From: Cytobacillus gottheilii
Lineage (GTDB): Bacteria; Bacillota; Bacilli; Bacillales; Cytobacillaceae
Assembly: GCF_001636345.1 (NCBI RefSeq)
Contig: NZ_KV440945.1
Location: 801,340 to 865,339 of the forward strand
DNA: 64,000 nucleotides
Direction of reading: 5' to 3'
The number at the start of each line of letters is the position of its first letter. The stretch's first letter is position 1. The translations under genes and the position numbers were made by a program. Below are positions 3,102 through 57,677 of this stretch, piece after piece. The notes beneath the pieces are model-generated. The model was not told the origin of the DNA. It saw only the letters and a list, made by a program, of their open reading frames with translations, and ran no database searches.

Positions 3102-4415
3102 GTGAAGAAAAAACGTCTACTAGTTCTATCAATGGCTGCAATGTTAGGTGCAGGCGGCTTGGCGATAGGCACTCCAGCCAATCAAGCATTTGCAGAAAGC
3201 AAAATTAATAATTTGCAAAAAGAGCAGGAAAAGCTACAGCAGGAACGTTCGGGTGTAGAAACTGACATAAATAAAGCAGGCTCTGAAATTGAACAGTTAC
3301 AAAAGGAACAAAAGGATGTTCAGGCAGAGATTAAACGATTAGATCTTGCCATCAGTGATGCTCAAACAAAAATCACTGAAAAAAATGAACAGATTACGAA
3401 GACAAAAGAAGAGATTGTAAAGCTTCAGGAAGAAATTAAAGTTTTGAAAGAACGGATTGAAAAACGAAATGAACTTCTGAAGGATCGTGCTCGTTCATTC
3501 CAGGAAACGGGCGGTGCTGTCAGCTATATCGATGTTCTCATGGGGGCGCAAAGCTTTAGTGACTTCATTGATCGTGTTGGTGCAGTAGCAACTATCATGG
3601 AAGCTGATCAAAGTATTTTAGAAGAGCATCAGGCAGATAAAGAGCTTTTAGAAGAAAAGCAAAATGCTGTAGAAGAGGAACTTGCTTCACTTGAAAAAAT
3701 GCTTGCAGATCTTAAGCAGCTCCAAAAGGAATTGAACAGCCAAAAAGGTGAAAAGGACAAGCTAATGGCTTCTTTAGAAAAGAAAGAGGAGCAAAAGCAT
3801 GCTGAAATCACTGATCTTGAAGAGCAGAAAGAAATTTTAGCTGCTCAAACGGCAGCTGTTCAAAAAGCAATTAAGCTTGAAAAGCAGCGTCAGGCGGAAG
3901 CGGCAAGAAAAGCAGCTCAGGCCGCTGCTGCAGCTGCTGCTGCTAAAAAGAATAATAGCGGATCTTCTTCATCATCTTCAGGTGGCGGGCAGCAAGTATC
4001 TGCACCACCGGTAGCAGGCGGTGCGTTCACACGTCCATCTGCTGGCCGTTTGTCTTCTGGATTTGGTCCGCGCTGGGGTACATTCCACTACGGAATTGAC
4101 CTTGCTGCAAAAGGAAGTGTTCCAGTTGTAGCAGCAGCTGATGGTGTGGTTATTCGTTCTTATTATTCTTCCAGCTACGGAAATGCAATTTTCGTTGCCC
4201 ATTCGATTGATGGTGTTGTTTATACAACAGTTTACGCTCATTTAAGCAGCAGATCAGTTGGCTCAGGTGCTGTTGTTTCCAAAGGACAGCAGCTTGGATA
4301 TATGGGTAATACAGGCCAATCTTATGGCCAGCATTTGCATTTTGAACTTCACCGCGGTGAGTGGAATGCGTCAAAATCAAACGCTATTAATCCAGTTGGA
4401 ATTGTTCCATTGTAA
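3102..4415 (+). CDS. Secreted coiled-coil M23 (LytM) peptidoglycan hydrolase, PcsB/CwlO-like N-terminus
   Basis: Predicted 437-aa secreted endopeptidase that cuts peptidoglycan cross-links. GTG 3102 is used because GAGGGGAG lies just upstream and the signal peptide (KKKR..., hydrophobic core, cleavage near AFA) starts there. Residues about 35-260 are a long coiled coil with the PcsB/CwlO-type segment YIDVLMGAQSFSDFIDRVGA. An Ala-rich then Ser/Gly linker leads to a LytM domain with zinc ligands in HYGID and HLHFE plus VYAHL. Placement right after ftsEX suggests it is the hydrolase gated by FtsEX, as CwlO, PcsB or EnvC are in other bacteria; that pairing is inference. Flanking terminators indicate it can be a separate transcript. 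Confidence 0.9.
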   Translation: MKKKRLLVLSMAAMLGAGGLAIGTPANQAFAESKINNLQKEQEKLQQERSGVETDINKAGSEIEQLQKEQKDVQAEIKRLDLAISDAQTKITEKNEQITKTKEEIVKLQEEIKVLKERIEKRNELLKDRARSFQETGGAVSYIDVLMGAQSFSDFIDRVGAVATIMEADQSILEEHQADKELLEEKQNAVEEELASLEKMLADLKQLQKELNSQKGEKDKLMASLEKKEEQKHAEITDLEEQKEILAAQTAAVQKAIKLEKQRQAEAARKAAQAAAAAAAAKKNNSGSSSSSSGGGQQVSAPPVAGGAFTRPSAGRLSSGFGPRWGTFHYGIDLAAKGSVPVVAAADGVVIRSYYSSSYGNAIFVAHSIDGVVYTTVYAHLSSRSVGSGAVVSKGQQLGYMGNTGQSYGQHLHFELHRGEWNASKSNAINPVGIVPL

Positions 4416-55820: not shown

Positions 55821-55857
55821 AAAAATGCCGGCCCATCATTCAATGATGGATCGGCAT
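55821..55857 (-). terminator. Terminator overlapping the end of the zinc-ribbon gene
   Basis: ATGCCGGCCCATCATT and AATGATGGATCGGCAT form a long stem with two internal mismatches; on the minus strand it runs into TTTTTGC. The stop codon of the 61-aa gene lies inside. Confidence 0.8.
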
Positions 55858-56021
55858 GCTCGACAGGTGATAACTTCATTCTTTCTGAACTGAATCTTCT
55901 TGAAATCGTTCTTGGTGAAAGTCGTAAAGACATTGTACTTGTGTCCGCATAAGCATGTGTGCTGGTCCTTGACGACGTGTCTAGTTTCTTTGTCTTTGCT
56001 GAGTACTGTTGGAAAAATCAT
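55836..56021 (-). CDS. Small zinc-ribbon protein (61 aa) under c-di-GMP riboswitch control
   Basis: Unknown 61-aa basic protein with two Cys pairs, CLCGHKYN (about residues 23-30) and CRACRS (about 53-58), spaced as a zinc ribbon; the middle is Lys/Phe-rich (FTKNDFKKIQFRK). No signal peptide or membrane helix. The ATG at 56021 has AAGAAGGGTGA upstream on the minus strand, and a terminator overlaps the stop, so it is a genuine monocistronic gene. Its leader contains a c-di-GMP-I riboswitch, tying expression to the motile/sessile second messenger. Possible roles (nucleic-acid binding, adaptor) are speculative. Confidence 0.75.
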   Translation of the reverse strand: MIFPTVLSKDKETRHVVKDQHTCLCGHKYNVFTTFTKNDFKKIQFRKNEVITCRACRSIIE

Positions 56022-56078
56022 TGTTCACCCTTCTTAAAGTTGTATTAGGCAAATTAAAAAGGAATGATCGACTTATAT

Positions 56079-56162
56079 GCAACCCGGCTGCCATGGCATG
56101 TGTACAAGCACATACTTTAGGCCCGTGGCTTTGCGTCTTTTACTTTCGTAAAATTTGCCCAA
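56079..56162 (-). ncRNA. Cyclic di-GMP-I (GEMM-I) riboswitch
   Basis: Read on the minus strand: GGGCAAA, a TTTTAC-GAAA-GTAAAA hairpin with a GNRA tetraloop, then GACGCAAAGCC, CGGGCCTAAAG, a second hairpin (GTATGTGC...ATGCC), and GGCAGCCGGGTT. This follows the GEMM-I layout (GNRA-capped P1, ACGCAAAGCC core with the ligand-binding bases, CCTA, tetraloop-receptor side, GCAGCCGGGTT). It ends about 58 bases before the start codon of the 61-aa zinc-ribbon gene. A segment AATTTGCC (56055-56048) downstream can pair with the riboswitch 5' end GGCAAATT, a possible switch. Confidence 0.88.
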
Positions 56163-56345
56163 TGGAATAATACCATAAAATGAAAGATATATCATTGTAA
56201 AATTTTGATTTGTAACAAAATAGAAATAAAGGCATCTATTTCAGATTTAGAATTAAACCGTTTTCATGTGCTTTTCCGCTGACAGAATTTCTCCATACAA
56301 TAATCATTCATATTACGGTAAAATAGGAATGAAGGGGGAAGCAGA

Positions 56346-57677
56346 ATGGATTTAAAAGCAGGTTTATGGCAGCAGCAAACCTTGAAGTTAGCAATGACTC
56401 AGGAGCTAAAGCAGTCTATTGAGCTATTGCAGTTTAACTCCCAGGAGCTCACTGCCTTTCTGGAAGAAAAGGCTCTGGAAAATCCCCTGATGGAGCTAAA
56501 CTCAAACTTTGTGAAAACAATGGATCCCCGTGCACAGCGAATTAAAAAATCAAAGCTTAAACAAAATCAAGATAAAGAGAATTGGATTGAACAGCTTGCT
56601 GTAAGTGTTCAGCAATTGGATGATTATCTGATTCAGCAGCTTCCGGCCGATCTGACAGAACCGGAGAAAAAAATCATTCTTCATTTTATATATAGCCTTG
56701 ATGAAAACGGTTACTTATATAATATCGATTTGCGGCAGGTCGCACAGCTTTATGGAGCTGATGAAGAAACTGTGGAAGAGCAGCTCGACGTCCTGCAGCA
56801 TTTAGAACCAGCAGGGATTGGTGCGCGCAGTTTGCAGGAATGTTTATTATTGCAGCTGGAGCGTCTTGTGCCAGCCAACGAAAGGGCTGAAGAAATTATC
56901 CGCCAGCACTTTCAGTTGTTTGCGGATAAAAAGTGGAAACCGTTAGCGAGGGAAATCAGAGCAGATGTAAAAGAAATTCAAGCAGTCTATGATCTGGTGC
57001 AAACGTTAAATCCGAAACCGGGAGCAAGCTTTGCCTCCGAAAAGCCAGCATATATCATACCTGATGTCATCGTGTATACAGAACAAAACGGCCTTCATAT
57101 CCAGCTTTATGATGAAAGCGTACCTAGTATTTCCTATAATGAAGGATATGCAAAGAAACTTCACAGTGCAGGTGATCAGCAGGTGGAACGTTACCTGCAG
57201 AACCGGCAGCAGGATTACCAATGGATTAAACGCTCAATTGAACAAAGGAAAGAAACAATTTTAAAAGTTACAAAAAAGATCGCAGAGCGCCAGCCGCAAT
57301 TTTTTCAAAAGGGACCAGCATTTATAAAGCCAATGACGATGAAGGAAATTGCGGATGAACTTGAAATCCATGAATCAACCGTGAGCAGGGCGGTTAGAGG
57401 GAAATATATGCAGACTCCGTTTGGAACATATGAACTGCGTACCTTTTTTGTCAGTATGATTAAGACGGCAGGCAATGCTGATGCGTCATCTGAAGAGGCA
57501 AAAGCGGCGATTCACAAGCTTATCTCCTCAGAAAATAAACAAAAACCACTTTCAGATCAGGAGATTGCCAATTTGCTGAAAACAGAGTCTGGCTTTGTCA
57601 TTTCACGAAGGACAGCAGCTAAATATCGAGAACAGCTTGGGATTCCTTCCTCTTCTAAACGAAAAAGATATGATTGA
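56346..57677 (+). CDS. sigL: RNA polymerase sigma-54 factor
   Basis: 443-aa sigma-54 (SigL/RpoN). N-terminal activator-interacting region is Gln/Leu-rich (MTQELKQSIELLQFNSQELT), core-binding domain in the middle, an HTH (MKEIADELEIHESTVSRAVRG) and the C-terminal RpoN box SRRTAAKYREQLGIP. Used for amino-acid, levan and acetoin catabolism genes with enhancer-binding proteins in Bacillus. ATG 56346 follows AAGGGGGAAG. A ribosome site at the end of the gene leads directly into the glutaredoxin gene. Confidence 0.95.
   Translation: MDLKAGLWQQQTLKLAMTQELKQSIELLQFNSQELTAFLEEKALENPLMELNSNFVKTMDPRAQRIKKSKLKQNQDKENWIEQLAVSVQQLDDYLIQQLPADLTEPEKKIILHFIYSLDENGYLYNIDLRQVAQLYGADEETVEEQLDVLQHLEPAGIGARSLQECLLLQLERLVPANERAEEIIRQHFQLFADKKWKPLAREIRADVKEIQAVYDLVQTLNPKPGASFASEKPAYIIPDVIVYTEQNGLHIQLYDESVPSISYNEGYAKKLHSAGDQQVERYLQNRQQDYQWIKRSIEQRKETILKVTKKIAERQPQFFQKGPAFIKPMTMKEIADELEIHESTVSRAVRGKYMQTPFGTYELRTFFVSMIKTAGNADASSEEAKAAIHKLISSENKQKPLSDQEIANLLKTESGFVISRRTAAKYREQLGIPSSSKRKRYD

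Follow-up and report, generated by a model that had tools for sequence, protein, structure and literature searches.

To our knowledge, the roles of c-di-GMP in many Bacillaceae have been only partly worked out, and one locus of Cytobacillus gottheilii poses the question in compact form: what does the signal control when a c-di-GMP-I (GEMM-I) riboswitch stands before a single gene for a 61-amino-acid (61-aa) protein of zinc-ribbon type? Here we analyse this locus within the window, that is, the whole 64-kb stretch of DNA under study (part of a 4.59-Mb genome assembled as 3 contigs), and in related genomes. The aptamer and the gene recur together in many related bacteria, a recurrence that makes the protein a likely new output of c-di-GMP. 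The riboswitch class is ordinary; the interest lies in the family of the output protein, of which we found no description in the literature searched, and among the matches listed no title or abstract opening connected zinc-ribbon proteins with c-di-GMP riboswitches.

Aptamer and gene in the window and in related genomes

The first-pass annotation had placed a c-di-GMP-I aptamer upstream of the 61-aa gene on the minus strand, and had proposed a covariance-model search as a check. The search gave a strong match (75.6 bits against the RF01051 gathering cut-off of 35 bits) that covers the full length of the model (positions 1–87), and the open reading frame (ORF) is present 3′ of the aptamer, after a gap of 53 nt. 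Across the whole 64-kb window, Rfam cmscan reported two matches above gathering, RF01051 and a tRNA (Table 1). The divergent gene that begins at 56346 is, judged by its sequence, presumably rpoN-like.

Table 1. Features of the locus, in window coordinates.
Feature	Position	Strand	Basis or remark
c-di-GMP-I (GEMM-I) riboswitch aptamer	56169-56075	minus	RF01051, 75.6 bits, E 4.8e-13
61-codon ORF, zinc-ribbon-type protein	56021-55836	minus	ORF list
Extended -10 element TGGTATTAT	56167..56175	minus	promoter scan, predicted
E1, GGCAAATT, 5′ end of aptamer	56159-56152	minus	proposed to pair with E2 when no ligand is bound
Anti-Shine-Dalgarno TTCCTTTTT	56056..56064	minus	partner of the Shine-Dalgarno region in the downstream fold
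E2, AATTTGCC, between anti-Shine-Dalgarno and Shine-Dalgarno	56055-56048	minus	complement of E1
Shine-Dalgarno region AAGAAGGGT	56027..56035	minus	downstream fold
Terminator-like hairpin and T run	55857-55821	minus	overlaps the gene at its 3′ end and stop codon
tRNA	55680-55609		Rfam match

Homologues were sought at three levels: in 36 genomes of the genus by protein search (23 with a match), in 193 genomes of the family by profile search (60 with a match, spread over 12 of 25 genera) and in 397 genomes of the order (16 with a match, two of them already known). An upstream aptamer was counted where RF01051 matched on the same strand as the gene with a gap of 30–140 nt. Within the family, the Rfam scan found such an aptamer at 42 of 74 homologous loci, a c-di-GMP-I-type aptamer downstream at 7 and none at 25; with 32 of the 74 loci lacking the upstream aptamer, the zinc-ribbon protein is thus often present without it. 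Among the 25 are L031, whose reading frame is broken by a stop, the divergent or truncated L100 and L101, and L087, where the available DNA reaches just 158 nt upstream. L031 is a second, aptamer-free copy of the gene in one genome of the genus and, given its in-frame stop, apparently a pseudogene. Elsewhere in the order, 8 of 15 further scanned loci (L105–L119) carry the upstream aptamer. Pooled, the aptamer lies 5′ of the gene at 50 of 89 scanned loci in 11 genera of two families, so the pairing that the annotation had suggested looking for in related genomes does recur. Left out of these counts were L029 (a weak match in the protein search with no profile match), the weak G024:C6 row of the genus protein search, L120 (internal stop, unscanned), the incomplete second copies at L086 and L102, and L045–L057, L064 and L104, which repeat places already scanned.

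The 36 genomes of the genus hold 150 RF01051 matches, 149 of them over the cut-off, and 20 of the 150 precede the zinc-ribbon gene. In two genomes (G012 and G035) the aptamer before this gene is the only c-di-GMP-I match, and RF03167 matches there at the same place only. On a tree of 78 proteins, weakly resolved owing to few alignment columns, the aptamer label changes 9 times, compared with 25.3 times in shuffles; going by these sequences, the link between aptamer and gene may conceivably have had a single origin. The protein family looks narrow in distribution, since among 398 genomes sampled across the phylum it was met only in the genome of the window. Named relatives with a homologue are mostly Cytobacillus or unplaced Bacillus, and the homologue of C. 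gottheilii Marseille-P3555 (L008 and L042 denote this same place) is 95% identical to the window protein.

No neighbouring gene is conserved across the loci. This variation, together with the 25 of 74 family loci at which no aptamer was found nearby, would suit a housekeeping protein unrelated to c-di-GMP, to which the riboswitch is linked incidentally in many lineages. We consider that improbable: the aptamer has been kept in 11 genera despite the varied neighbours, the expression platform is conserved, and some copies without an upstream aptamer adjoin c-di-GMP genes (L103 and five loci of genus g18, described below).

The leader and the direction of control

The promoter scan gave 3 matches in total, near the shuffle mean of 2.2; one of them is a TATTAT that ends at 56167 with TG in front, which predicts that transcription begins near 56160, with the first G of GGGCAAATT. 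A TGnTAnn(n)T motif lies 7–11 nt 5′ of the aptamer’s GGCAAA in 47 of 50 leaders, compared with 10% of letter-shuffled segments, and by this placement the mRNA probably starts at or near the first G of the aptamer. At the other end of the gene, the hairpin at the stop codon has a minimum free energy of -22.1 kcal/mol, and its 5′ arm is built partly from the last codons of the zinc-ribbon gene. Similar hairpins lie at the stop codon in several relatives’ loci and are absent from others; the simple terminator scan did not list the one found here. Nor did that scan list a minus-strand terminator between the aptamer and the start codon, in agreement with the annotation, which had seen no clear one and had therefore suspected translational control.

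The annotation had also pointed to a short element downstream of the aptamer as the complement of the aptamer’s 5′ flank. The two elements, E1 and E2, are exact complements in the window. E2 is conserved: 46 of 50 leaders have TTTGCC or a one-letter variant 30–40 nt 5′ of the start codon (exactly TTTGCC in 44), and four lack it (L062, L075, L083 and L084). None of the five other RF01051 leaders of the same genome has the exact TTTGCC. In most E2-bearing leaders, a pyrimidine stretch just 5′ of E2 pairs with the Shine-Dalgarno sequence (SD). Two alternative folds of similar energy are present, and the SD is masked in the one that is compatible with ligand, according to a folding model that admits no pseudoknots. 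In the window they come to -41.2 kcal/mol with E1:E2 and -42.0 kcal/mol with the aptamer; the means are -39.4 and -40.7 kcal/mol, so that the aptamer fold is better by 1.3 kcal/mol even without ligand. Over the 46 leaders, the mean cost of opening the SD is 8.7 kcal/mol if the aptamer is sealed and 5.8 kcal/mol if E2 is occupied, a drop that exceeds 1 kcal/mol in 36 of them. When E1:E2 is enforced, the SD becomes freer in 39 leaders, less free in 3 and stays unchanged in 4; when only E2 is blocked, it is still largely paired in many. Judged by folding and conservation, translational control and a role for the E2 element thus fit 46 of the 50 leaders.

Among 18 representative leaders, the anti-SD pairs better with its own SD than with swapped partners (p=0.017), which lends this pairing modest comparative support. 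Masking of the SD in the same set exceeds that in dinucleotide shuffles (mean z 0.9, Wilcoxon p=0.002); the exceptions are L017 and L089, which mask the SD less than their own shuffles do, and L060, which masks it no more. An extended E1:E2 pairing was set aside as a covarying helix, the flanks beyond the core showing no covariation and pairing no better with their own than with swapped partners (p=0.93). In the core itself the aptamer dictates GGCAAA, so that this helix gains no compensatory support. The flanks would stay outside the transcript if its first letters are GGG, which would explain why they do not covary; conservation is then the one argument for the E1:E2 helix. The anti-SD:SD and E1:E2 pairings could also coexist as a pseudoknot, an arrangement beyond the reach of the folding model.

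The best explanation of these features is a self-contained cassette comprising a promoter, an aptamer that begins at about +1, a translational platform, a single gene of 61 codons and, overlapping its stop codon, a terminator. We think it likely that this cassette works as a translational OFF switch in which c-di-GMP shuts off the zinc-ribbon protein. At low c-di-GMP, the 5′ end of the mRNA, GGGCAAAUU, would come away from the aptamer and base-pair with AAUUUGCC, where the UUUGCC element lies; this pairing would disturb the anti-SD hairpin and let ribosomes start. With c-di-GMP bound, the aptamer would hold GGCAAA and set AAUUUGCC free, whereupon the adjacent anti-SD hairpin would mask the SD and turn the protein off. 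The protein would be made in cells with little c-di-GMP, either planktonic or motile. Both the ligand and the OFF direction are our inference, and repression of translation, as in Vc2 of Vibrio cholerae, is the most likely effect.

The same riboswitch and gene might instead form an ON switch, with c-di-GMP raising translation of the zinc-ribbon protein. A precedent for that direction is Bc3-5 of Bacillus thuringiensis, described as ON in the relevant passages of one study (PMC4759541), and two features of the leaders lean the same way: the E1:E2 helix lacks covariation, which leaves the OFF logic to folding, and three leaders have a less accessible SD when E1:E2 forms. We nonetheless regard an ON switch as unlikely, because the E1:E2 fold frees the SD in the large majority of the 46, the SD is more masked with the aptamer locked, and the window leader has no minus-strand terminator in the scan.

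GGCAAA lies inside the aptamer in all 50 leaders, so that a G and not an A precedes CAAA, and we take this G to be G20, the position that specifies the ligand. The genome of the window also has 15 GGDEF and 9 EAL matches. Both observations speak against an aptamer that senses 3′,3′-cGAMP and would put the gene in the regulon of another signal. That reading takes its plausibility from reports, in the passages concerned, that the GEMM-I G20A variant binds cGAMP (PMC6274999) and that rare natural variants sense c-AMP-GMP (PMC7266159); for the aptamers described here we hold it to be very improbable.

The 61-aa protein and its c-di-GMP surroundings

The 61-codon ORF is under purifying selection, with dN/dS of 0.00–0.54 in 14 pairs of homologues (a fifteenth pair, misaligned by an indel, was excluded). 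Across 44 aligned homologues, P4, C25, I43, F45, C53 and C56 are invariant, and H15 and G26 are conserved in at least 90% of the rows; H15, C25, C53 and C56 are all invariant in an alignment of 26 homologues. The annotation had read the protein as having two cysteine pairs, a reading that holds for C25, C53 and C56 but fails for C23, which is not conserved among homologues, and H15 would take its place as the fourth ligand. The likely zinc ligands are therefore H15, C25, C53 and C56, kept across the family as the two pairs H15/C25 and C53/C56. In L080 a cysteine replaces H15, a swap expected of a zinc ligand. The net charge of the window protein is +6, equal to the family median (range +2 to +11, n=73).

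The window protein matches no Pfam family over its cut-off (best, DUF678, 21.1 bits versus 24.1), has no NCBIfam match up to E 1 and no match better than E 0.39 in a PDB sequence search. Matches of the 44 members are likewise weak and scattered, the best at E 0.00035 in Pfam and 0.0014 in NCBIfam, with none over a cut-off; DUF678 and Zn_ribbon_CSL were rejected as family identities because they fall below their cut-offs and differ between members. The best match among phage families is PHROG 15583, of unassigned function (E 5.4e-5), which 20 of the 44 members match weakly. A phage origin was unsupported in a tblastn search with the window protein only, which had no match in 50,697 phage and 72,556 plasmid records.

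The zinc-ribbon gene is one of several c-di-GMP-I targets in its genome, given five further c-di-GMP-I aptamers. Two of these five stand before small ORFs that have no Pfam match; the other three precede genes for a SinI anti-repressor, a transglutaminase-like protein and a response regulator. The SinI anti-repressor is a 45-aa protein (PF08671, E 3.6e-10) preceded by the RF01051 match at L005 (G000:C1:3900336-3900477, minus). An apparent hairpin and T run come after the best RF01051 match of the genome (L001, G000:C1:4303459-4303545, 89.7 bits), and the L001 switch therefore looks transcriptional. The aptamer at L002 (G000:C1:3388199-3388285), in a leader without TTTGCC, precedes what Pfam identifies as a stand-alone response-regulator receiver protein.

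Some relatives show c-di-GMP genes on the other side of the zinc-ribbon gene. In L070, an aptamer (L070:3802-3884) lies 56 nt downstream of the gene and before an ORF that resembles the L002 response regulator; upstream of position 3560, TTTGCC is kept and no aptamer was detected even at E 0.1, a combination suggesting that the L070 riboswitch may have decayed. In one genus of the family (g18; L092, L093, L096, L097 and L099), the zinc-ribbon gene has no aptamer of its own and stands 122–131 nt before a c-di-GMP-I or c-di-GMP-I-GGC aptamer, which is followed by a SinI-like ORF, with a Pfam match in L092 and L093. A prediction of ON switching for five SinI leaders came out mixed (clear in 2 of 5) and was not used. 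In L103 (L103:2728-3701), an EAL-domain gene lies 33 bp downstream of an aptamer-free zinc-ribbon gene. In L059, the zinc-ribbon gene sits on the opposite strand between genes with helicase and phosphoribosyltransferase domains (Pfam), presumably comFA and comFC.

The SinI, EAL and response-regulator links suggest a role in a c-di-GMP lifestyle switch, and the protein is plausibly an output effector of c-di-GMP. From its conserved residues the protein would bind zinc, and we picture it as a small regulatory adaptor that may contact nucleic acid or protein and that putatively regulates motile or planktonic life. More tentatively, and with considerable doubt, it could be the first member of a novel family of c-di-GMP output effectors: basic HCCC zinc-ribbon proteins, made only at low c-di-GMP, that bind RNA or protein and oppose biofilm formation on the side of SinI. 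A cassette kept in 11 genera, and an aptamer that is the sole one of its class in two genomes, indicate that the protein matters for the response to c-di-GMP; a protein tied to that response nevertheless falls below the cut-off of every domain family.

Comparison with known systems

The switch shares its aptamer class with Vc2 of V. cholerae, whereas the target here is a zinc-ribbon protein. Vc2 is presented as a translational OFF switch in the passages concerned of one paper (PMC9262584), among whose references is a title that describes repression by masking of a distant ribosome-binding site. Bc1, Bc2 and Bc3-5 of the Bacillus cereus group are of the same aptamer class and come from Bacillaceae, as far as excerpts of the published accounts show (PMC4759541, PMC4933901, PMC11218506). 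Bc3-5 is reported to control transcription through terminators (PMC4759541), and Bc2, by its entries in a search listing, a collagen adhesion protein (PMC4933901, PMC11218506).

For the protein, a parallel in size and zinc finger is offered by Haloferax volcanii, in which one-domain zinc-finger proteins of less than 70 aa, each with a single zinc finger, are reported to affect swarming and biofilm formation, and five deletion mutants indicated counter-regulation of sessile and motile life (PMC6562870). Those proteins are archaeal, and the abstract of that work mentions no riboswitch.

A parallel to the whole arrangement is found in Bacillus methanolicus MGA3, for which the pertinent passages report a c-di-GMP riboswitch before sinI and, for the species, two c-di-GMP riboswitch targets without an assigned function (PMC4342826). 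There, as here, a c-di-GMP riboswitch precedes the gene of a tiny protein, which is regulatory in the case of sinI; SinI is a known anti-repressor, whereas the window protein has no SinI match and belongs to no named family. If the effector reading is true, one signal would set two tiny regulators through riboswitches.
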